Positions 17,101 to 58,949 of a stretch of DNA of 64,000 bases are shown piece after piece; position 1 is the first letter of the stretch; each line of letters opens with the position of its first letter. The notes below the pieces were generated by a model. The model saw only the letters and a list, made by a program, of their open reading frames with translations. It made no database searches and had not been told where the DNA came from. The DNA lies in NCBI GenBank assembly GCA_958430865.1, contig CAUDNR010002224.1:127515-191514 (forward strand), in the 5' to 3' direction. The position numbers were made by a program, and so were the translations under genes. The DNA is from Entrophospora sp. SA101 (lineage: Eukaryota; Glomeromycota; Glomeromycetes; Entrophosporales; Entrophosporaceae).

Positions 17101-20100
17101 TCAAAACACATTACAATTAGGCGTAAATTTTGATCCACAAATAATCACTTTATTTAAAGAAGTTCGTAATCTGCTCTGGTTAGATCATCAAGTTCCACAT
17201 AATATTAGTGGTTTGGCAAAAGTTGCTAAACGTGTCTATCCATTTGCCGTCAGTCTAATGGAAACAGTGAGGACATATGCTCAAACTATACAAAAAGCCA
17301 GAGAACATCCCGAGATTATAATGTTAGTTGCTAGTTATCGTAATGATGTCCAGGCACAAATTACCAAAGGCATAAATTATGAATGGAGATATTTTGTTGA
17401 AACTTATGACCATCATTATCATCCAAATATGCACATGACTGGTTCTTTGGATTCTCCTGAAAATCAACATGTGACTTTTGTCAGAGACTTTGCAAACCAA
17501 GTCTCTATTTTTCAAGATAAAGTTGACGCTTTGATATCTAGTTATGAAGATATTTCTCGTTATATTGATGATTTAAAAACTTGTTTATACAAGAAAGCTA
17601 AACTCCAAGGAAATTTGGATAAAATTCAAAAGCTTGTAAGTTAGAATTTTAAATTTTTTGATATAATATACTAATTGAACTATATTTGTGTTAATGAATC
17701 AATCTATTGAATATAATCAGATCGATAGACTTAATCTAGAGTCATACTCAAATCTTAAATCGTGGGTTTCAGAACTTGATAAACGAATTGAAGCAGTTTT
17801 GGCGCAACGACTAGAGAAGGCAATTATTGCATGGACAAATGAATTCACGGTTGCAGGTGATGACTCCGGTAATCGTGATTCTACCTCACGTGAAGCAGTT
17901 TCTATTAGTGGTAAAGTTGTAAAACGGGCTAGGCGGCACACTTCAAAAAATGAATCTGGTATTGATGGGGAAAGGCCGTTGGCTTCAAGAAGTGCTGAAA
18001 AACCCGAACTTGAAATCTCTGTTCATGAAGTTCTTATTCTTAATCGAGTTATTTATTTGGATCCACCTGTTGAAGAAGCTAGATCCAATTGGTTCAATCA
18101 ATTGCACGAATGGCTTGGTAACTATCTGCTTAACAATTAATCAATCAATCAATCAAATCAATTATTATTATTAACTATAAAAAATGATTTTTTCTAATAA
18201 AATATATTTAATTTAGCAATTGTATGTAATTTACCAAGAATTCAAAGTTCTAGATATGAAATCTATGTACAAGTTAAAGGATCTATTTCCGAGAAAACAT
18301 ATTCTAATTTATTATCCCAAATTCCCGAAGCAACACTTAAAAAAGCCTATGAAGTAATTGAAGAGAAATTGAAAGAAATGGGTGAATATGTTAATATTTG
18401 GTTTCAATTTCAATCATTATGGGATTTGGAAGATGATTTTGTAAGCACATATCTTGGTGATGATCTTGAAAAATGGCAACAAATCCTTACTGAAATTCAA
18501 AATTCCAGATCAACTTTTGATAATGCTGAAACATCATGTTCATTTGGCCCTATAGTTGTTAAATATGAACAAGCTCAGAACAGAGTTAATGAGAAGTATG
18601 AGAGATGGCAACGTGACGTTTTGAGTAAATTTGGAAATAAACTTGGAGATGTTATGCGACAGTTCAATGCTGACATTTTACATGCTCGTACAAATCTTGA
18701 AAATCAAACAATTGATAATAATGGTACCGGTGACGCTGTCATCCTGATCACTTTTATACAAGATTTGAAACGTAAAATAGCTAAATGGGGTCAAGATGTT
18801 GAATTATTCCGTAAAGGTCAAAAAACTTTGGTCAAACAAAGATATCAGTTCCCTAGTGATTGGTTATATGCTGAACAGATCGATGGTGAATGGAGTGCCT
18901 TTAATGAAATTTTCTCAAGGAAGGATAGTGCCATACAGGAACAAATTGGTACGTGTGAATAGAATATTTTATTAACAAAAAAAAAAAATTTAAATTAAAT
19001 TATTAAATTATTTTTTAATACACAACACGTACATACAGCTGGATTACAAGAAAAAATTATTAAAGAAGATGAAATTGTTGAAGCCAAAATCAAAGAAACT
19101 GATGCAGAATGGGATAAGAATAAACCAATTCAAGGAGACATTAAACCTGATATGGCCATCAATACTCTTAAAGTATATTCAGTACGTATCAAGAATCTTA
19201 AGGAAGAATATGATAGAGTTTGTCGTGCCAAAGAAGCTCTTGATATGGCACTGTCAACTGATAGTAAACTTGATACTATTCTTGAAGAACTTGATGATCT
19301 TAAATCGGTCTGGGAAGCTTTGGCAGATATTTGGCAAAAACTTGGTGTTTTGAAAGAGAAACCATGGGCTACCACCTCACCACGTAAAATCAGACAAGAT
19401 TTGGACAAATTGCTTGCTGAAACTAAAGATTTACCAAATCGTGTCAGAACATATGCTGCGTTTGACTTTACTCAGAATGCATTAAAAGATTATATTAAAG
19501 TTAATCCTGTTCTTTCTGAACTCAAATCCGAAGCATTGCAAGATCGTCATTGGAAACAATTGTTCAAAACATTACGTATTGAAAAAAGTTATATTTTTTC
19601 TGAGATGACTATTGGCAATGTATGGGACTTTGATCTTAGGAAAAATGAACTACCTATTAAAGAAATTGTTGCTCAAGCTTCAGGTGAAATGGCTCTTGAA
19701 GAATTCTTGAAACAAGTAATCATCAATATTTTTCATTTTATTTTTTAATTAAGTTTTATGATTTTTTTTTTATAATTGATTTATTAATTTATTGTGTAAT
19801 GTGTAACAGGTTAAAGAAACATGGTCGACTTATATTTTAGAATTGGTTAATTATCAAAATAAATGTCGTTTGATCAAAGGATGGGATGATATATTTACTA
19901 AATGCGGTGAACATTTAAATTCCTTGACTGCTATGAAGGTATCACCTCACTACAAAGCATTTGAACAAGAGGCTTCAGCCTGGGAAGACAAACTGAATAA
20001 GATACATGTTTTATTTGATGTGTGGATTGATGTACAACGTCAATGGGTTTATCTTGAGGGTATTTTCAGCAATAGTGCTGATATCAAACATTTGCTACCA

Positions 20101-23100
20101 GTTGAAACTCAAAGATTTCATAGTATAGATACAGAATTTTTAACAGTAATGAAGAAAGTGTACAAGTCACCATATGTAGTTGATGTGTTGAATATTTCAA
20201 ATGTACAAAAATCATTAGAACGGTTAGCTGATCTTTTGAGCAAAATTCAAAAGGCTCTTGGAGAATACCTTGAACGTGAACGTTCCTCATTCCCTCGATT
20301 TTATTTTGTTGGTGATGAAGATTTACTTGAAATCATTGGTAATAGTAAAGATGTTCTGAGAATTCAAAAACATTTCAAGAAAATGTTTGCTGGTATTTCC
20401 AACATTTTATTAAACGAAGACAATACTATAATTACTGGTATGGCATCACGTGAAGGCGAAGAAGTTATCTTTAAACATCCAATCTCACTCAAAGAACATC
20501 CAAAAATTAATGATTGGCTTACATTGATTGAAAAAGAAATGAAAGTCTCACTTGCTGAATGGCTGACTGAATCATTTAATGAACTTGCCGTTTTTTATCT
20601 TGCCGATGATTTAGACACCCCTTTGTTTTTGAACTGGATAGAAAAATATCCTACACAATTAGTAGTTGTAGCATCACAAATTATTTGGACTCAATCAGTT
20701 GAAAAAGCTTTATCAACCATGGAACAAACAGATCGTAACGATATTGCACCATTAAACAACGCACTTAACTGTTGTCTTCGTGCATTGGATCTTTTAGCTG
20801 ACACTGTGCTTCAAGACCTACCAACCACACAACGTAAAAAATGCGAACATCTTGTTACTGAGATTGTTCATCAACGTGATTTGCTTCGTCAACTCATAAA
20901 AAGCAAAACATCATCACCAAAAGATTTTGAATGGTTGTATCAAATGAGATTCTATTTTAATTCTAGTCTGGAAGATCCTTTGGTTCGTCTTACAATCAGA
21001 ATGGCAAATGCACAATTTTACTATGGTTATGAATATCTTGGTATACCAGATCGTTTAGTACAAACACCTCTTACTGATCGCTGTTATCTCACTTTAACTC
21101 AAGCTTTGGAAGGAAGATTAGGAGGAAGTCCATTTGGACGCAAGTATCAAATTTATTATTGCTAACTTATTTAAATTATTTGTTATAATTTTTTGTTATA
21201 ACATTTTTTTTTTGTTTTTGCACACATTTATCCGCACACGCATATACTTGTATTGGAATTAATATTTGTCTCTTTATTTTTGATTATTCTACATAACAGC
21301 CGCGTAAGTACTTTTTAATGATTTACTTTTATTTTTTTAAAAATTTCAATAAATAAATATCTAATGTAATTCTAATTTTCCATCTTTTAAATTTAAATAG
21401 AGGTAAGGAATTTAAAATAAAACATTTTTATTTTTATTTTTATTTTAATAAAACAGCTAAATAACGTATTATATTTATTTTTTTTAGGAACTGGCAAGTG
21501 TTGGGGTAAAGGTACCAAATTTATTATGTATGATGGATCAGAGAAAGCAGTCGAAGAAATTGTTGTCGGTGATAAATTAATGGGCGATGATAGTACAGCC
21601 AGAAATGTTCATTCAATAACTCGTGGAATTGGACAAATGTATAAGATTATTCCCAATGAACATTCATCACCAGCTGAACCATTTACATGCAACGACGAAC
21701 ATATTTTAGTTCTTGCAATTTCCGAGAAACCAAAAATACAACATTTTATTAACAATTCAACAGAAAAAAGTCCATGTTATAAAGTTAAATGGTATTCTCA
21801 CGATCCAATTTCAAATTCCATCAAACTCAATTGCAAAACATTCACTTATCAATCAAACAATAAGATTGATGAAGAAATCAAACAAAAACAAGCTCAAACG
21901 TTCTGTTCTAAAGTTCCTGATTTGACTTGCAACAATTTCAAATGGGAAATTAGTGTTAAACAATTCTTGAGTTATAAAAAATCAATTCAAAATGTCTGTA
22001 GAATGTATAAACCATCAGAAGTTCATTTCTCGGCATTTAAAGGTCAATTCAAAAAAGTTTTAGATAATGTACTTGGTTTTGATTCAACTGATGATCAAAT
22101 CAAATCATTCTCTTGGCTTATTGGTGCTTGGATAGCTGGTGGATTTAAAAAATCGATTTTTACTAACAAGAGTGCGAAAATTGTAAAAAACCAAATGACC
22201 GAAAAATTAGAAGGGTGCGGCAAATTACTTGGATTAAGTCTTAGATTTTACAAATTTAACAAAAACAATGATGAAATAATCAAAATTGAATACAAAACTC
22301 TTAAAAATGAAAGTGATGAATACAGTCCATTACATAATAAATTTACCAACCTTTTAAGGCGATTAGAAATTTTAGATGGTAATAATGTTCCAAACTTTAT
22401 GATGATGGAGGACATAGAAACGGTTCGTCTACCACTTCTTGGTGGACTTCTTGATGCAGGCGGTTATTTTGTTGAAGGCAGAGAATATTCATTTGAACTG
22501 GAGCAAAGAAATATTGCAGAACGTGTTGCTAGAATAGCTAATCTTTCAGGTTTCCGTGTAAATAATTTCAATACAATTACCAAAATTGGAAATAAGTCAA
22601 GAAATCCTTTCGGAGAAATAAAAAGTAACAACAAGGCTAAAGCAGAATGCTTCAGTTTATTTATTACTGGTGGAAATATAAATGATATTCCAACGATTGT
22701 TAAAAATAAATCGGTACAAAATCTTGTTAATGATCCATCTGATTACACATGGAAATTTAATGTCGAAACTTTGCAACATGACGATTATTATGGATTTACT
22801 GTTGACGGAAATCGTAGAATGCTTCTTCGTGATTTAACTGTAACACACAATACTGAATCTGTGTATGTAAATTTGTTTCTAATCAATTGATTTTTGTTTT
22901 ATTAATACTATAATTGATATTTTTTAACCCTACATTTTTTTTCATTGTTTTCCAAACATATAAATAAATAGCAAAGGTAATCAATCGATCAGTCAAATAC
23001 ATTATTGTTTATTATTATTATTTAAAAAACATTAACACGTCTCTTATTGTTATTTATTATCTTAGCACTTGGTGTACAACTTGGTAGATTTGTGCTTGTA

Positions 23101-26100
23101 TTCTGTTGTGATGAGAATTTTGATTTCCAAGCTATGGGCCGTATTTTTGTTGGTCTTTGTCAAGTAGGAGCATGGGGATGTTTTGATGAGTTCAATCGTT
23201 TAGAAGAAAGAATCTTGTCAGCTGTATCACAACAAGTACAAACAATTCAACTTGGCTTGAAAGCAATTATGGATAATCCTAAGGCTGAAGTAGAAATTGT
23301 AGGAAAGAGTCTTACAGTCAATGCTAATACTGGTATGCACAAATCTTTATTAAATAAATAAATAAATAAACAAATAAACAAATAATTAAATGTGTATGTA
23401 TATTTGTATATTTATTAGGTATCTTTATTACTATGAATCCTGGATATGCTGGTAGATCCAACTTGCCTGACAACTTGAAGAAATTGTTTAGAAGTATTGC
23501 CATGACTAAACCAGATCGTGAACTTATTGCACAAGTGATGTTGTATTCTCAGGGTTTCCGTACAGCGGAAATCCTTGCATCAAAAGTCGTGCCTCTATTT
23601 AATCTTTGTGCAGAACAACTTTCACCACAAGCTCATTATGATTTTGGTCTGAGAGCATTAAAGAGTGTACTTGTTAGTGCTGGTAATATGAAACGTGAAC
23701 GTCTTCAACATTTAAGAGCAGCGATTCAAGCAGGCGAAAAAGATGATACCGAATACACAAAAATATCTGAACCAATACCTGAGCAAGAAATTATGATTCA
23801 AAGTGTTCGCGAAACTATTGTTCCTAAATTAGTTGCTGATGATATTCCATTGTTAACAAGGTAAATAAAATCAGATAATTTAATCTCAACAAATTTTTTA
23901 TTTTTTTTTTTAATAAATCAATTATAATAAACATATATAGTTTAATGACTGATGTATTCCCGGGAGTTGAATATGTGCCTGTTGATCTTGAAAAACTTAC
24001 GGAGGAAATCAAAAAAGTTTGTAAAGAGAAAAGACTTTTTGATGGTGAAATGTGGATGGAAAAAACTCTTCAACTTTATCAAATTCAAAATATTCATCAC
24101 GGTTTAATGATGGTAGGTCCATCTGGATCTGGAAAAACAATGGCCTGGAAGGTATTATTAGAAGCATTGGAAAGAGTGCAAGGTGTTGAGGGTGTGCCAT
24201 ATGTTATCGATCCTAAAGCAGTATCCAAAGATGATCTTTACGGTACTTTGGATCCTACAACTCGTGAATGGACTGATGGTCTTTTCACTCATATTTTAAG
24301 AAAAATTATTGATAATGTACGTGGTGAAAGTGCAAAAAGGCATTGGATTATTTTTGATGGTGATGTTGATCCTGAATGGGTAGAAAATTTAAATAGGTAA
24401 AAAGATTTGAAAATGAAATTAATTGTATATTATTTTATCAAGTAGAAAACTAATAATGATTTTTTTTGATTTGCAGTGTGTTGGATGACAATAGGTTATT
24501 GACATTACCTAACGGTGAACGATTGGGTTTACCACATAATGTAAGAATTATGTTTGAAGTAGAGAATTTGAAATATGCAACATTGGCTACTGTCAGTCGC
24601 TGTGGTATGGTCTGGTTTAGTGAAGAAGTAGTGACATTGGAGTTGCTCTATAATAATTATTTGGAAACACTTAGAAGCGTTTCATTAGATGAAAATGAAG
24701 AGGAGGATAGTGTAGCTAATGCACATAGAAATGAATCTGAAGAAGAAAGCTCACCACACATGAACACACAACGTGCCATTGCAACAATACTTTCTAAACA
24801 TATGACTGATAATGGTTTAGTTACAAAAGCTCTTGAGCATGCAGAAAAATTGGCTCATATTATGGATTTCACAAAAGCGAGAGTCTTGAGCACTTTGTTT
24901 TCATTATTGAATAAAACAGTAAGGAATGTTATTGAATACAATGTACAACACCCTGATTTCCCAATGGGAGCTGAACATATGGAAGGTTACGTTACAAAAA
25001 GATTAGTGCTTGGTGTAATTTGGAGTTTCTCTGGTGATGCTAAACTTGATTTACGTGCAAATCTCGGTGATTATATTCGTGGAATTACAACAGTTGATTT
25101 ACCACCTGCCCAACCGGGTTCTTCTATTATTGATTATGACGTACAAATTAACAATGGTGAATGGGTATCATGGGCTGGAAAAGTTCCTACTATTGAAATC
25201 GAGACTCATAAAGTTTCATCAGCTGATATAGTTATTCCAACAGTTGACACGGTACGTCACGAAGAAGTTTTGTATTCATGGCTTTCAGAACACAAACCTC
25301 TGTTACTATGTGGTCCACCAGGTTCAGGAAAAACCATGACTCTTTTCAGTGCTCTTAGAAAATTACCTGACATGGAAGTAGTAGGTCTTAATTTCTCAAG
25401 CGCCACCACACCCGAATTGGTTCTTAAAACTTTTGAACAATATTGTGAATATAAAAAGACTCCAAATGGTATTATATTGGCTCCAGTAGCAATTGGTCGT
25501 TGGATTGTAGTATTTTGTGATGAAATCAATTTGCCTGCAACTGATAATTATGGTACACAACGTGTTATTTCATTCTTGAGACAATTATTTGAATATGGTG
25601 GTTACTGGAGAGCTTCTGACAAGTCTTGGGTTAAACTTGAAAGAATTCAATTTGTTGGTGCTTGTAATCCTCCCACTGATCCTGGTCGAGTACCTTTAAC
25701 TCATAGATTCCTTCGTCATTCTCCATTGGTTATGGTTGATTATCCTGGACAAATATCCCTCAACCAAATTTACGGAACTTTTTCGCGTGCTATGTTAAAA
25801 GTTGTTCCAGCACTCCGTGCATACGCAGAAAATCTTACAGCAGCAATGGTAGACTTTTTCTTGATGTCCCAAAAAAGATTTACACCAGACATTCAAGCAC
25901 ATTATATTTATTCGCCTCGTGAGTTGACCAGATGGATGAGAGGTATTTATGAAGCTATTAAACCTATGGAAACCCTTACTGTTGAAGGATTGATTAGAAT
26001 TTGGGCACATGAAGCTCTTCGTCTATTCCAAGATCGTCTTGTTGGAGAAGATGAAAGAAAATGGACAGATGATAACATTGATGCAATTGCCATGAAACAT

Positions 26101-29100
26101 TTCCCTAATCTAAACCAAGAAGAAGCTTTAACCAGACCAATTTTATACTCAAACTGGTTGTCCAAATTTTATATACCAGTACAACGTGATGATTTACGTG
26201 ATTATGTCAAGGCTAGACTTAAAGTATTTTATGAAGAAGAATTGGATGTTCCACTTGTGTTATTTAATGATGTATTAGATCATGTATTAAGAATTGATCG
26301 TGTGTTCCGTCAGATGCAAGGACATTTACTTTTAATTGGTGTGAGTGGTTCTGGTAAAACAACACTATCTAGATTTGTTGCTTGGATGAATGGTCTAAGT
26401 GTTTTCCAAATCAAAGCACATAATAAATATACTGGTGATGATTTTGATGAGGATTTGAGAACAGTGTTAAGACGTTGTGGTTGCAAGGCAGAAAAGATTT
26501 GCTTTATTATGGATGAATCTAATGTATTAGATTCTGGATTTTTGGAACGTATGAATACGCTTTTGGCTAATGCTGAAGTTCCAGGTTTATTTGAAGGTGA
26601 TGAATTCAACACATTGATGACAAGTTGTAAAGAAGGTGCTCAAAAGGAAGGCTTGATGTTAGATTCAAATGAAGAGTTGTACAAATGGTTCACACAACAA
26701 GTGATGAAAAATTTACATGTTGTATTTACAATGAATCCCCCAGAAGGTGGTTTAGCTTCACGTGCGGCAACTTCGCCTGCTTTGTTCAATCGTTGTGTGC
26801 TTGATTGGTTCGGTGATTGGTCAGATCAAGCTTTCTTCCAAGTTGGTATTGAATTTACTCAAAGTTTAGATTTAGATCTACCTAGTTATTCTCCTCCATC
26901 CAACTTCCCAGTTGTATATCGCGGGTTATCATCCTCACCAATACATCGTCATGCTCTTGTGAATGCATTTGTGTATGTTCATCAGTCACTTTATGAAATC
27001 AATGCCAAGTTGAGTAAACGCCAAGGAAAATATAATTATGTTACTCCTCGTCATTACTTAGATTTCATTAATCAGTATGTAAGATTATTCAATGAGAAAC
27101 GTGAAGATTTAGAAGAACAACAACGTCATTTAAATATTGGTTTAGAGAAATTAAGAGATACCGTGATTAAAGTAGAAGAATTGAAAAAGAGTTTGAGTAT
27201 CAAAGAAAAAGAATTAGAGAGAAAAGATAAGGAAGCCAATGAAAAATTGAACAAAATGGTTAAGGATAAAGAAATAGCAGAAATAAATGAAAAGGAATCC
27301 AGACAACTTCAAAAAGTTGTCGAGATTCAAAACAAGGAAATTGAGGAAAGAAGAGCTGTTGTATTGAGAGATATTGCAAATGCACAACCTGCTGTTGAGG
27401 AAGCCAAGAAAAGTGTACAAGGTATTAAGAAACAGCAACTTACTGAAGTGCGTTCAATGGCAAATCCACCAGAAGCGGTGAAACTTGCTATGACATCTGT
27501 ATGTACTATACTTGGGTTTAAAATTGATACTTGGAAAGGTGTACAAGGTGTTATTCGTAGAGACGATTTTATTACTAGCATTGTAAATTTTGATACAGAC
27601 AAAAACATGACCAAATCTCTTAGAGATACAATGAGAAATGATTATCTTAGCAAACCACAATACAATTATGAAACGGTTAATAGAGCTAGTAAAGCTTGTG
27701 GTCCATTGGTCAAATGGGTAGAAGCTCAAGTCAATTATTCAACAATTTTAGATTCTGTTGGTCCATTACGTAAAGAAGTAGATGATTTAGAACAAAAATT
27801 ACAAGAACTTAAAGCCAAATTGGAAGCACTTGATCAAACGATTAAGGATACGGTGAAGCAGATTGCAGTCTATAAAGAAGAATATACTGTTTTGATGACA
27901 GAAAGAGGAGAAATCAAAAATGAAATGATACAAGTGAAAAACAAGGTTGATCGTAGTTTGAAACTTCTTGACAGTTTATCGTCAGAAAAAGGAAGATGGG
28001 AAAGTGGTAGTCAAACATTTGAGACACAAATGGGTACTATTGTTGGTGATGTATTGCTTTCAGCAGGATTCCTTGCTTATGGTGGTTACTTTGATCAACA
28101 ATATCGTGAAATTTTATTAAATAAATGGACAAATCATCTTGTCAGTGCCAATATTCAATTCAAATCAGACATATCATTGACTGAATATTTATCATCAGCT
28201 GATGATAGACTTTCATGGCAAGAAAATTCACTTCCAGCAGATGATCTTTGTACAGAAAATGCTATTATGCTTAAACGTTTTAACAGATATCCACTTATTA
28301 TTGATCCATCAGGTCAAGCATCAGCATTTTTGATGAATGAGTTTAAAGATAAAAAGATTACTATAACCAGCTTCTTGGATGATTCATTTATCAAGAATTT
28401 AGAAAGTGCTCTTCGTTTTGGTAATCCATTACTTATCCAAGATGTAGAACATTTAGATCCTATTCTTAATGCAGTATTAAATAAAGAATTGAGGCGTACT
28501 GGTGGTCGTGTATTGATTCGTTTAGGTGGACAAGACATAGATTTCTCGCCGTCATTTACACTCTTCCTTTCAACTCGTGATCCGTCAATTAATTTCCCAC
28601 CGGATGTGTGCAGTAGAGTCACTTTTGTTAACTTTACAGTAACACGTGGCAGTTTACAAAGTCAATGTCTCAATCAAGTCCTTAAGGTTGAAAGGCCTGA
28701 TACAGATAAAAAAAGAACAGACGTAATTAAACTTCAAGGAGAATTCAGATTAAAATTAAGACATCTTGAGAAATCTTTATTGCAAGCTTTAAATGAATCT
28801 AAAGGAAATATTTTGGATGATAATAAAGTTTTAGACACATTGGAAACATTGAAGAAGGAAGCTGCAGAAATTACAAGTAAAGTCGAGGAAACTGAAGGTG
28901 TTATGCAAGAAGTCGAACAAGTAACTGCAGAGTATACACCACTTGCACAAGCATGTAGTTATGTCTTCTTTGTGATGGAACAAATGAATTTATTGCATCA
29001 CTTTTATCAATTTTCACTTGAATATTTCAATGAAATTTTCCAATTTATTCTTCGTGAAAATCCAAATCTTAAAGATGTTACTGATAATAGTGAAAGGTTA

Positions 29101-31917
29101 AGAATTCTTATGAAAGATCTTTTCAATGTTACATTTTATAGAGTTTCTCGTGCCCTATTACATGAAGATTATGTTACCTTTGCAATTTTATTAGCACAAG
29201 TCAAACTTCGTAATGAATCCAATCAATTGGATGAAACTGAATATGATTTCTTATTGAGTGGTGGTGATGTAGTGCCTGGATCCAAAGCTAGTGCACGGGA
29301 ATTAGGTTTACCAGAAGGATTGTTTGATAGTGATCAACTATGTCGTATCAAAGAATTCTCAACTCTCAAATGTTTCTCGGGTCTTACCAAACATATTGCA
29401 AATAATGAAGAAGAATGGCAGGAATTTTTTGACGCTGATGCAGCCGAAAAACATATTCCAGTTTGTTGGGATAGTTCATTACCACGTAATTGTTATTATT
29501 ATCATTATTCTATTTATCTATTTTGATTTTATATATATACTTAAATAAATTATATTTGTTTTATATAGCTATTATTATACAATTAAGAAAAATGTTGATT
29601 GTCAAATGTTTCAGATCTGATAGGCTTTTATCAACTATTAGTGAATTTGTAGCAATTGCATTTGATCCAGGATTTATTGCCCAAGCAGAGTTAGATCTTA
29701 AGGAAATGGTTTTGGATGAAATTCAACCAAGCACACCTATATCATTATGTTCAGTTCCTGGATATGATGCAAGTTACCGTGTAGACAATCTTGTAGCAGA
29801 ACTTAATATTAAATGTAAATCAGTTGCAATGGGATCACAAGAAGGATTTACGTTAGCAGATCAAGCTATTGCAGCATCAGTTAAAAATGGTGAATGGGTA
29901 TTGTTGAAGAATGTACATCTTGCACCATCATGGCTTGGACATTTAGAAAAGAAATTACATAGTATGAAACCAAATAGAAATTTCAGATTGTTCCTTACCA
30001 TGGAAACAAATCCAAAAGTACCAGTGAATTTATTACGTCTATCTCGTGTCTTGATGTTTGAACCACCACCAGGAATTAAAGCTAATCTTCACGAATCACT
30101 TAAAAGCATACCAGCCAGCCGTATTTCCAAAGGCCCAACCGAAAGAGTTCGTTTATACTTTTTACTTTCGTGGTTACACGCAATTGTTCAAGAAAGACTT
30201 CGATATGTACCACTTGGTTGGACAAAGATTTATGAATTCAATGATTCTGATCAAGATTTTGCATTCAATACTATTGATGCATGGTTGGATTCAGTTGCTC
30301 AAGGCAGAGCAAATATAGCACCTGAAAAAATACCATGGGATGCTATTCGTATATTAATATCAATAGTAGCTTATGGTGGTCGTATTGACAATGAATTTGA
30401 TAAACGGCTATTAGAGAATTTTGTAAACAATTTATTTACACCAACTTCATATGATCTAGACTTTCCACTTGTAATATCAGAAGAGGACAATAAATTGGTG
30501 ATACCTGAAGGATCTAAAATTGATCAATTCATGGAATGGGTTAACAAATTACCGGATCGTGAGCCACCAGTATGGTTAGGATTACAAAGTAATGCTGAAA
30601 GAGTGCTAGCAACCACACAAGGTAATTTTATCTATAATATTTTATGAATATATTTTTATGGTAGTGAGGGTGTTTGTTTTAATTAATAAGTGGCTTTTTG
30701 TGATTAACTTGACGTTAAATGTAATAATTAATGAATAATATTTAGCAAATGCGATGCTTGTTAAGATTTGTAAGATGAAGAGTTTATCTGACGATGATGA
30801 AGTTGCATATACTCAAGAATCAAGTTCACAATCATCTGCAGCATCATTACAACCAGCTTGGATGAGAGCATTATTTACTACAGTAGACAATTGGTTGAAG
30901 TCATTACCAGAGGTAAGGCCCGAATTAATTGAAAAAAAAATTAAAGACTAGTTTTCCAATAAATAATTAAATAATTGATCATTCTATGTGTGCGCATTTT
31001 GATTTTAATAGAAATTGAAGCCAATGAATCGTACTGCAGAAAGTATCAAGAATCCATTATTTAGATTCTTTGACCGTGAAAATCAAATTGGACGTAGCCT
31101 TTTAAAGAAAATAAGACAAGATTTAGATGACATTAAATTAGTTTGTGAAGGAGAATTGAAACAAACAAATCATTTGCGTATGTTACTTAATTGCTTAACA
31201 AAAGGTTAGTAACAAATTCATATATAATTTATATTATTTTTTTTATATATTGATTTTTTGTTTAACATATTTAAAATTATAAATGAATGAATAGGTATGA
31301 TACCAGATCATTGGAAAAAATATAAAGTACCTAGATCGGTTTCTTTGAATCATTGGATTGCAGATTTCAAGAGTCGTTTACAGCAACTTGAAGAGATAAC
31401 AAAGGAGAGCGACTATACTAGTTTAGAAGTATGGCTAGGTGGACTTTTTATGCCTGAGGCATACATTACAGCTACACGACAAGCAGTAGCACAAAAACAC
31501 AAATGGTCACTTGAAGAATTAAGATTAGAATTTGATTTAAATACTGCAGGATCACCAGATTCATTCACAGTATCAGGTATTATTTATTTACCTAAATTAA
31601 GCATCTATTTTATTTAATATTTAATTATTTAATTATTTAATTTTTCTTAATTTTTTATTTTAGGCGTAAGACTTGCAGGAGCACAATATCAAAACAAACA
31701 AATTCAAATTGTAGCGAATCCGATGATCAAATTAGAATTATCACAAATTCGGTGGGTATTAAAGACGGAAGTAGCTGAAACTAATGAAAACACTGTCAAT
31801 CTTCCTGTGTACCTTAACGAAGACAGAAGTGATTTATTGTTTGCTGTTAACGTTGATGCCAAACCTTCTGAAAAGAAAATGATTGCTCAGCGTGGCATTG
31901 CAGTAATTGTTTATTAA
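14159..31917 (+). CDS. Cytoplasmic dynein heavy chain, 25 exons, with an intein in the AAA1 P-loop
   Basis: This is the motor subunit of cytoplasmic dynein, which drives minus-end transport along microtubules. Exons: 14159-14417, 14515-14996, 15063-15300, 15400-15492, 15613-15739, 15842-16496, 16597-16899, 17015-17635, 17721-18117, 18217-18948, 19039-19715, 19810-21139, 21300-21303, 21401-21402, 21488-22862, 22972-22976, 23066-23332, 23419-23860, 23941-24396, 24477-29491, 29569-30621, 30746-30912, 31012-31204, 31295-31576, 31664-31917. They sum to 5,143 codons in frame. The start has an in-frame TAG just upstream. Walker A motifs are AAA1 GPAGTGK|T (K1977 before the intein), AAA2 GPSGSGKT (~2729), AAA3 GPPGSGKT (~3101) and AAA4 GVSGSGKT (~3443). 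The AAA1 Walker B is GCFDEFNRL. The coiled-coil stalk and microtubule-binding domain fall at about 27080-28010. The C-terminal domain is complete, unlike the shortened yeast Dyn1. Without the intein the protein is 4,691 aa. The first splice (donor GTTATT) is the least certain; the exon 20/21 junction is moderately certain. Confidence 0.95.
21300..22976 (+). other. Micro-exon cluster coding the dynein AAA1 P-loop (4, 2 and 5 nt exons)
   Basis: The upstream exon ends ..SPFG plus one base at 21139, before a GC-AG intron (donor GCAAGT). The next coding pieces are CCGC (21300-21303; acceptor ACAG, donor GTAAGT) and AG (21401-21402; acceptor ATAG, donor GTAAGG). Then comes the intein-bearing exon (21488-22862; donor GTATGT), followed by CAAAG (22972-22976; acceptor ATAG, donor GTAATC), then 23066. 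Joined, they give PAGTGK, the intein, then TESVKALG, which is exactly the conserved dynein sequence in the correct phase. Introns are 160, 97, 85, 109 and 89 nt. Reading any of these introns through breaks the motif. Confidence 0.88.
21499..22851 (+). other. Intein (451 aa) inserted between Lys and Thr of the AAA1 Walker A motif; endonuclease motifs degenerate
   Basis: This is a protein-splicing element translated within dynein. It begins with Cys1 ([13 protein letters not shown], block A). Block B is [12 protein letters not shown] with N65 and H68, the same N-x-x-H layout as the yeast VMA1 intein. It ends YYGFTVDG...LTVTHN (blocks F/G) with His450-Asn451 and Thr as the +1 residue, so all class 1 splicing residues are present. 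Two LAGLIDADG-type helices are recognisable: LIGAWIAGG (207-215) and LGGLLDAGG (314-322). The acidic residue at position 8 is Gly214 and Gly321 respectively, so DNA cleavage is probably lost. The +1 Thr is the Walker A Thr, so an unspliced product would lack an AAA1 ATP site. Confidence 0.93.
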
Positions 31918-57129: not shown

Positions 57130-57333
57130 AATTTTTGTTTTTGTGTCAATTTTCCCTCGTTTTTTACTCATTTATTCGCGGATTCTTTAATAGAATGAAT
57201 GACCTGAAAAAAATTAGTAGTATATAATAATAAATATTTTTCATGTAATACAAAATACATTTATAAAGTTTTTGCTTCATTCGTGTGACAAATATAATAC
57301 TTTCATGTTTCAAATTAACTATATCATTATAAA

Positions 57334-58949
57334 ATGCCATATCCACTACTGCAAGGCAAAGGAAAATTTGATTCAAATAAATTAACCGGTGAATTAAATA
57401 AAAGAGATGGTGATGAATTTGAATTAGTTGGATTAAATAATTCATTAAGTGAGTTACTTGAAACATTAAAAACAATAGATAATTGCATTGATTGTAAAAC
57501 AAGGTCGTTAAATGATAATGAAATTATAACATCACTTAATGAATTACTTGATGTATTAAAAAAGCTTTTACAAATAAATATTAAAAAAAAGGTAATCAAC
57601 AAATTAACTGGAGAAACATTTGAATTAGATAATCAATTAAATAGCAACTTATGTAATACCTGTCAAGAAAAAAAAATAGAGAAATTAATTGACAAATGTC
57701 AAAATGAAGAAATGGCTAGGTTTCTTTATCAGTATAGGGCAGATCCAAAAACTATTAAATGGGTCCCGTTTAATGAATTTAAAGATAGGAGTTATTTAGC
57801 TCGAGGTGGATTTAGTGAGATTTATAAAGCAACTTGGGTTAATTATTTTGAGCCAGTCAATAAGGAATTTGGGAGAAAAATGAAAAATATTGTGTTAAAA
57901 CGGTTAAACAATTCTGAAAATATATCAGATATATTCAATGAGGTAAAAATTTCACTTTTTATAAATATCACTAATTAATTTTTATTTATTCGTAATAAAT
58001 ATTATTTGCAAACTTTTAGCTGAGCGCAAATGATAAATTTTATTTTTCCGTTAACAAATGTTTTGGAATTACCAAAGATCCAGGCGAAGATAATTACATG
58101 TTGGTATTTGAGCATGCTCCAAATGGAGATTTAGATAATCATTTGTCAAAAAGTTTCAAAGAAATTACTTGGAAAGATAAAATTGCTTCACTTTTTTGGA
58201 TTTCATTAGGGTAATTTTTAAATTATTATTGCTAAAAATTATGATTTTTCTAATATAGATATAAATAAATAAGCAATTAATTATTTATTTATTTGCTTAT
58301 CTATTTATTATTAATATAAATTAGATTAAAAAACATTCATGACAATAATTACATTCATCATGACATACATGGTAGAAATATTTTCTCGTATGATAATGAT
58401 ATGTGTGTTATAGGAGATTTAGGGTCATGTCAACACAAAGAAGTAAGTCCAAATAAAATTTTTGGAGTCATAAGATACTCGGCACCTGAAGTATTATCAA
58501 ATAGAACACACACACAAAAGTCAGATATTTATAGTTTTGGTATGATAATGTGGCAATTCACTACAGGCAAGAAACCATTCTATGATAGGTCATATAATAA
58601 TCATTTTGAACTTATTCCGGATATTTTAGAAGGAAAACTGCCTGAAATTACTAACGATACACCTCAGTTTTATGCTATTTTGATGAAGGAGTGTTGGGAT
58701 CCCAACCCAGAAAATCGACCTGACTTTGGCAAAATTCATGAAGATTTTAAGAAGTATTTTTATTGCAATGAACTTTCTAGAGAAGAAAGAGAAGTTGAGG
58801 TGGCAGAAAATAAACGTTTGGCGTTTATCACTTCAGAAAAATTTTTGTCTAATGAAAAAAGTTATAAACCAAACCGTTCACCAGCATCATCTAACTCAAA
58901 TGAACGAGATAGTAAAGTTGATGGCTTAATTTATGAATTTAGTATTTAA
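57334..58949 (+). CDS. Tyrosine-kinase-like (TKL) protein kinase of the Glomeromycotina-expanded type
   Basis: Three exons (57334-57942, 58020-58210, 58325-58949) join in frame to 474 codons plus stop. The N-terminal ~140 residues are charged and end in a CNTCQEKKIEKLIDKCQN segment. The kinase domain follows: glycine loop ARGGFSEIYKATW (~157-170), Lys189 in IVLKRL, the helix C NEVK, catalytic loop IHHDIHGRNI (D280), GDLG (D298 in place of DFG), APE in YSAPEVL, and SDIYSFGMIMWQFTTGKKPF. WDPNPENRPDF occurs in the last lobe, followed by a ~65-residue polar tail. The catalytic motif is HHD, not HRD, so activation-loop control probably differs. Kinases of this look form very large families in Rhizophagus and Gigaspora. 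The substrate is unknown. A MITE sits just upstream. Confidence 0.9.

Follow-up and report, generated by a model that had tools for sequence, protein, structure and literature searches.

An intein at the catalytic P-loop of cytoplasmic dynein-1 in Entrophospora sp. SA101

An intein in the AAA1 Walker A motif

We find an intein in the AAA1 Walker A motif (P-loop) of a cytoplasmic dynein-1 heavy chain gene from Entrophospora sp. SA101. The gene lies in a stretch of 64,000 nucleotides (nt) of a genomic contig (hereafter, the window), where the intein occupies a stop-free frame of 451 codons, from Cys1 to Asn451 (21499..22851; all features given here are on the + strand). The coordinates agree exactly with those of a first-pass annotation, which had proposed the intein from the DNA alone. 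This full-length class 1 intein very probably splices itself out of dynein-1, rejoining GPAGTGK to TESVK and restoring the AAA1 Walker A motif.

The intein begins with CWGKGT and ends with RDLTVTHN, and the next codon (ACT) supplies Thr at position +1. Alignment places Asn at residue 65 and His at residue 68. Every splicing residue that had been listed for it is therefore present, and this class 1 set (Cys1, N65/H68, H450-N451, and Thr+1) is complete in both dynein gene copies of the genome. We compared the splicing and catalytic residues across 45 aligned inteins, leaving uncounted 7 of the 52 tree rows (see below) that were too short. His68, His450, and Asn451 are invariant (45/45), Cys1 is found in 43 with a gap in the remaining 2, and N65 is found in 41. 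The alignment delimits an N-terminal block with the nucleophile Cys1 (21499..21537), a block B region with N65 and H68 (21676..21717), and block G, RDLTVTHN, with His450-Asn451 (22828..22851). From the sequence, a further conserved-type region at 22780..22818 is what we take to be block F.

Profile and structural comparisons also identify a Hint domain. The Pfam profile PF05203 (Hom_end_hint) spans intein residues 1 to 450 with 117.1 bits against a cut-off of 32.1 (E = 1.5e-33), and the fold comparison agrees. A failure to find this domain had been named in advance as grounds for abandoning the intein; the LAGLIDADG endonuclease profile PF05204 falls marginally below threshold (20.2 versus 21.1). 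An NCBIfam scan of the intein gave no profile near its cut-off. The top sequence relatives in the PDB are PI-SceI, the VMA1 intein of Saccharomyces cerevisiae (E = 6e-13), and then Prp8 inteins. PI-SceI differs in host and site, and is a homing endonuclease according to the title of entry 1vde, whereas the dynein intein lacks the catalytic acids. The Prp8 inteins of Cryptococcus resemble the dynein intein in their Hint domain (1.4 Å over 141 residues), although their host is a splicing factor and their site is not a P-loop.

The host gene encodes the domains DHC_N1, DHC_N2, AAA_6, AAA lids, AAA_7, AAA_8, stalk, AAA_9, D6, and Dynein_C (Pfam). Its large downstream exon (24466..29523, open-frame coordinates), covering AAA_7, AAA_8, the stalk (MT), and AAA_9, scores 2466 bits against cytoplasmic dynein 1 heavy chain 1, compared with ~609 for dynein-2 and ~708 for the best axonemal chain. 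By these scores the host is a cytoplasmic dynein-1 heavy chain, in line with the cytoplasmic dynein named in the first-pass annotation. The intein splits Lys from Thr in GPAGTGKTESVK, the AAA1 Walker A motif. Both gene copies read GPAGTGK/TESVK (slash, insertion point), and sequence alignments of the joined flanks with solved cytoplasmic dyneins run through the site with no gap.

The insert is not a spliceosomal intron

Removal of all 1,353 nt from the RNA as an intron would have overturned the intein proposal, and inferred introns do flank the intein only 11 nt away on both sides. The insert itself starts with TG and ends with AT in both copies, so that neither copy has GT-AG, GC-AG, or AT-AC ends. 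Furthermore, the first base inside the insert is not the same as the one that follows the insert, and the last base inside is not the same as the one that precedes it. Because these neighboring bases differ, the boundaries cannot be shifted to give any of the three standard readings, which also rules out a retained intron. The two inserts are open over 451 and 439 codons, with no frameshift at a synonymous divergence (dS, NG86 method) of ~0.65, and their splicing blocks are strongly constrained in amino acids. It is thus extremely improbable that the insert is an intron removed from the RNA.

A second dynein gene carries the same intein

The genome (101 Mb, 2123 contigs searched) contains a single further full-length relative of this intein. 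It lies on contig C1222, is 67% identical, and has 439 codons; it occupies the same dynein insertion site, with dynein flanks 90-95% identical. The AAA1 profile PF12774 finds at least 8 exon pieces in the genome, all from these two genes, and this search found no intein-free dynein heavy chain and no axonemal chain. The at least 9 genomic matches to PF05203 are the two dynein inteins and 7 pieces in a PRP8 gene on contig C1330.

By NG86, the dynein sequence of the two copies differs by a nonsynonymous divergence (dN) of 0.061 and dS of 0.82 upstream of the site (374 codons), and by dN of 0.030 and dS of 0.48 downstream (93 codons). These dynein dS values (0.48-0.82) rule out that the C1222 copy is an allele rather than a paralog. 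Overall dS between the two inteins is 0.645. Since dS is similar, the inteins diverged at about the same age as their host genes; this and the shared site indicate that the intein was present before the two dynein genes diverged.

We find that selection on the intein is uneven. The NG86 dN/dS ratio between copies is 0.089 over residues 1-75, 0.415 over 76-200, 0.298 over 201-330, 0.782 over 331-415, and 0.128 over 416-451. YN00 gives the same trend (0.059, 0.148, 0.157, and 0.587, with no value for the last, C-terminal block) and an overall dS of 2.45. Likewise, the copies are identical at 95/110 residues in the splicing parts versus 191/323 in the interior (Fisher P = 6e-8). Strong purifying selection acts on the splicing blocks, whose constraint is close to that of dynein itself. 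Parts of the interior are also non-neutral, and the interior stays open, as translation through it requires.

Predicted splicing and dependence of the motor

The intein would be translated within the cytoplasmic dynein-1 heavy chain precursor. Following the chemistry of known inteins, Cys1 would attack the Lys-Cys bond, and the ester would be transferred to the hydroxyl of Thr+1. Asn451 would then cyclize, assisted by His450, and release the intein, whereupon a Lys-Thr peptide bond would form and the P-loop would be restored. Before splicing, the main motor ATPase would have no intact P-loop, and the motor is probably functional only after intein removal. The first-pass annotation had already argued that dynein activity would depend on splicing. 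This likely dependence holds, and is stronger than was first argued, since the intein is also in the one further dynein heavy chain gene that we found.

Several points weigh against splicing as described. Splicing is itself inferred from sequence, and Thr is a less common +1 nucleophile than Cys or Ser (in VMA1 the +1 residue is Cys). The proposed gene structure includes an unusual splice model with predicted exons of 4 and 2 nt. The absolute substitution rates are rough, as the YN00 dS lies far above that of NG86. Finally, splicing could be incomplete: if the intein only cleaved, or stayed in place, dynein would be left in two pieces or dead. That the endonuclease is already dead by its residues is a point in favor of this reading. 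Set against it, the splicing residues are intact and their blocks are under purifying selection in both copies. In addition, no dynein heavy chain gene was found beyond these two, both of which carry the intein, and the window copy contains the motor domains expected of it (the C1222 stretch includes a 1,500-base N run and was scanned in part). We therefore regard incomplete splicing as quite improbable.

Productive splicing might in addition be regulated, which would make the intein a post-translational gate on dynein; this idea adds to self-splicing and does not exclude it. The intein persists in both genes despite its lost mobility, and conditional splicing is reported for other inteins (PMC6195587, PMC7360933, and PMC5790916). 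Retention is explained equally well by the difficulty of exact deletion: exact deletion is probably rare, and inexact loss would probably destroy dynein. We consider regulation unlikely. In its fullest form, the idea is that of a domesticated intein, dead in mobility and kept through an old duplication, whose Lys-Thr splicing is conditional (redox, metal, or developmental) and so switches on all minus-end-directed transport along the microtubules of a coenocytic fungus. We offer this as speculation that is probably wrong.

Loss of the endonuclease catalytic acids

Both LAGLIDADG helices can be aligned. In the window copy, Gly214 replaces the catalytic acid in the first (22108..22149) and Gly321 replaces it in the second (22429..22470); the C1222 copy has Gly and Ser. 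We take these acids to be equivalent to D218 and D326 of PI-SceI. An active LAGLIDADG endonuclease has an acid in each motif, and neither dynein intein has one in either. Relatives from other sources number 40 in the alignment: 34 have both acids, 3 have one, and 3 have neither, including a thymidine kinase intein described below. Of the five aligned inteins of the genome itself, four have neither acid and one (Prp8 intein 4) has one. The first Gly is common to both dynein copies, which suggests that acid loss began before the duplication.

With neither catalytic acid left in either copy, the dynein intein has very likely lost the ability to home and is transmitted with its gene. It is probably a fixed, immobile element.

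Relatives of the intein at other P-loops

A database search with the intein matched 22 proteins, none of which has a dynein domain. The best match, P0002, is an intein-bearing thymidine kinase (32% identity, 98% query coverage, E = 2.7e-53; host domain PF00265, E = 4.5e-53). Like the dynein intein, it lies at a Walker A Lys/Thr site, judging by its C-extein, and has lost its endonuclease acids; it differs in host protein, and its N-extein side is not visible. Its position within the thymidine kinase Walker A motif is presumably the equivalent one. By eye, 18 of the 22 proteins read ...GK/C on the N side (16 under a strict pattern). The inteins of P0003 and P0005 lie three residues earlier in the same P-loop, and P0021, like P0002, has no visible N side.

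Relatives are also abundant in viral contigs, where at least 530 were confirmed and the best 80 kept. Of the 72 full-length rows among these best 80, 49 read G(x)K/C...HN/ followed by T or S, and in 16 more the intein is shifted by three or four residues toward the N terminus (G/[ST]..GK); these proportions are indicative, as near-duplicates are included and not every row was verified as Walker A. A scan of the viral contigs with P0002 gave no pattern match.

We placed the inteins in a tree of 52 rows, whose Prp8 inteins are those of this genome and which has no VMA1 or public Prp8 inteins. The two dynein inteins group with P0002 (support 100/98), and then with Prp8 inteins 1, 2, and 4 of the same genome (100/99), in a tree where several Prp8 branches are long and the bootstrap is not fully settled. 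Prp8 intein 3 is placed elsewhere. The 34 viral rows fall outside the dynein, thymidine kinase, and Prp8 clade, with L036 among them joining next (94/85). The dynein intein thus groups with nuclear, Prp8-type inteins and not with the viral rows, and a recent viral donor is not supported. Prokaryotic origin or contamination was also rejected: a genome-contig scan with the window intein gave 36 pattern matches and 0 relatives. We read this as a nuclear Prp8-like lineage that came to occupy the P-loop site, its sister hosts being dynein and thymidine kinase. A shared target sequence may have allowed movement between unrelated P-loops, as the thymidine kinase intein suggests.

These relatives raise the question of whether the dynein intein is still an active selfish element, homing among P-loop genes. 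Its relatives occupy the P-loop of many genes, as the viral rows illustrate, and its closest relative sits in a thymidine kinase. The residues speak against activity, as the dynein inteins and their thymidine kinase relative alike lack both catalytic acids, and the two dynein inteins have diverged about as much as their host genes. We give current homing almost no credence.

The site itself is well known. Passages of PMC5050341 and PMC5874633 describe the phage intein TerL1-a, which, like the dynein intein, lies between the invariant P-loop Lys and Thr, and a passage of PMC5050341 calls this the “classic” P-loop insertion. The P-loop inteins of helicases, RecA/RadA, and TerL1-a have phage or prokaryotic hosts, whereas dynein is a eukaryotic cytoskeletal motor encoded by an intron-bearing nuclear gene.

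An apparent dynein intein in a metagenomic fragment

A search with the dynein exon that follows the intein gave 1126 matches at E = 1e-15, of which 120 were listed. Among these 120, 37 stop short of the site, 81 read GK/T, 1 reads SK/T, and 1 (P0114) reads otherwise; the 83 listed fragments that extend across it thus include 81 with GK/T. Sixteen of the 81 read GTGK/T, and the other 65 mostly have non-dynein sequence before GK, as at an exon edge. P0114 is a dynein fragment with MLLHDLTVTHN before an HN/TESVK junction. It shares 76% identity with the C1222 dynein and 10 of the last 11 residues with the intein, these 11 being all of the intein that is visible in this short metagenomic fragment. 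Its source tag (src) presumably denotes a soil protein catalogue.

Given its dynein identity and intein C-terminus, the same insertion seems to be present in another organism. P0114 scores 153 bits against the chains of 3vkg/27pt, which we take to be from Dictyostelium, and 133 against dynein 1 heavy chain 1. Because the former score is the highest, the host of this one short fragment may be amoebozoan. P0114 appears to be the only outside case of a dynein intein among the matches listed. None of the 3 candidates from a search with the C1222 junction reached E = 0.01.

A new host for a known kind of site

According to the main text of a 2018 survey (PMC5784728), the commonest nuclear intein hosts are Prp8, VMA1, RNA polymerase subunits, ThrRS, glutamate synthase, chitin synthase, and eIF5B. 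That tabulation of the commonest hosts has no cytoskeletal motor, and the word “dynein” occurs 0 times in that main text. Literature searches for intein with dynein or “dynein heavy chain,” judged by title or the start of the abstract, found no dynein intein among the papers listed; the supplementary tables of PMC5784728, preprints, subscription journals, InBase, and annotated fungal proteomes lie outside this scope, and a prior listing in those supplementary tables is possible. The earlier suggestion that a dynein host may be undescribed thus stands within the literature searched, and has no support beyond it. The intein is real; its type of site is known, and its type of host is new.

In both cytoplasmic dynein genes found, the main ATPase appears to require protein splicing. 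If the intein does splice, it leaves a scarless Lys-Thr junction at the dynein catalytic center, and an intein inhibitor would also inhibit dynein. A dead endonuclease combined with constrained splicing blocks provides a clean case in which to ask why immobile inteins persist. Furthermore, the P-loop Lys/Thr site, known from prokaryotes and phages, is here occupied in a nuclear gene.

Exon structure around the intein

The first-pass annotation placed the intein exactly between Lys and Thr of GPAGTGKT. The position is correct, with the refinement that the intein exon (21488..22862) supplies only the end of the Walker A motif: (G)TGK before the intein (21488..21498), and the +1 Thr codon ACT with the rest of TES and the start of V after it (22852..22862). 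In the spliced reading, GPA comes from the upstream exon plus two micro-exons. The upstream exon (19807..21139; 19807 is the open-frame start, not a mapped splice site) runs from DHC_N2 to the start of AAA1 (Pfam DHC_N2 and AAA_6) and ends in ...GGAC with a GC donor, gcaagt. The predicted micro-exons are of 4 nt (CCGC, 21300..21303, read as cag/CCGC/gtaagt) and 2 nt (AG, 21401..21402, read as tag/AG/gtaagg). After the intein, the spliced reading is TESVKALGVQ, completed by a predicted 5-nt micro-exon (CAAAG, 22972..22976). The next dynein exon (23066..23332) carries the rest of AAA1 to ...NANT, followed by gtatgc.

The C1222 paralog supports this putative micro-exon model. It shares the donor and both upstream micro-exons, of 4 and 2 nt, in the same order and reading, with one base changed (CGGC for CCGC), and the spliced Walker A peptide would be identical in the two copies. 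The introns around the micro-exons are moderately alike between copies (z of 3.2-5.0 versus shuffles). Downstream, the C1222 intein continues into dynein in a single open frame; because the intron is absent there, that copy has no need of the 5-nt micro-exon. The 2-nt exon could be processed by stepwise re-splicing, since its junction with the 4-nt exon recreates CAG/GTAAGG or CAG/GTATGA.

PRP8 inteins and other loci

The PRP8 gene on C1330 (profiles PRO8NT, PROCN, RRM_4, and PRP8_domainIV) carries four inteins. One of those in loci L027 and L028 (~43.3-51.8 kb) is a mini-intein of 173 amino acids, and Prp8 intein 4 has kept its second LAGLIDADG acid and lost the first. The 3' half of PRP8, with inteins, occurs twice on this contig in near-identical form (L026, 14.9-19.1 kb, and L028, 47.4-51.8 kb). 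In the L026 copy, the last intein is disrupted, part of it lies on the opposite strand, and the stretch contains 584 N. This doubling is either a tandem duplication or an assembly artifact.

The type I fatty acid synthase domain PF08354 was not found in a genome search that had no eukaryotic positive control; passages of PMC6007072 report that arbuscular mycorrhizal fungi lack this enzyme. The Hint family PF01079 was also not found in the genome search, which does not fit the expansion of C46 Hint proteins reported for Glomeromycotina in passages of PMC8778642. The fungal transcription factor domain PF04082 has 19 matches in the genome and 0 in 14 control genomes. Chitin synthase (PF03142) has 51 matches, the best two above 819 bits, and is also found in 4 bacterial controls. 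These domain counts identify the genome as fungal, and the missing fatty acid synthase domain, the lack of axonemal dynein matches, and the kinase fragments described below make an arbuscular mycorrhizal fungus probable. Loci with PF03142 or PF04082 occur in equal-scoring pairs or triples across contigs (C322/C949; C1107/C1965, with C1417 close; C119/C720/C1637), a sign that some contigs of the assembly may be redundant or represent haplotypes. The window itself also contains protein kinase fragments (PF07714) at 57319-58949, which we take to resemble the large kinase families of arbuscular mycorrhizal fungi (Glomeromycotina).
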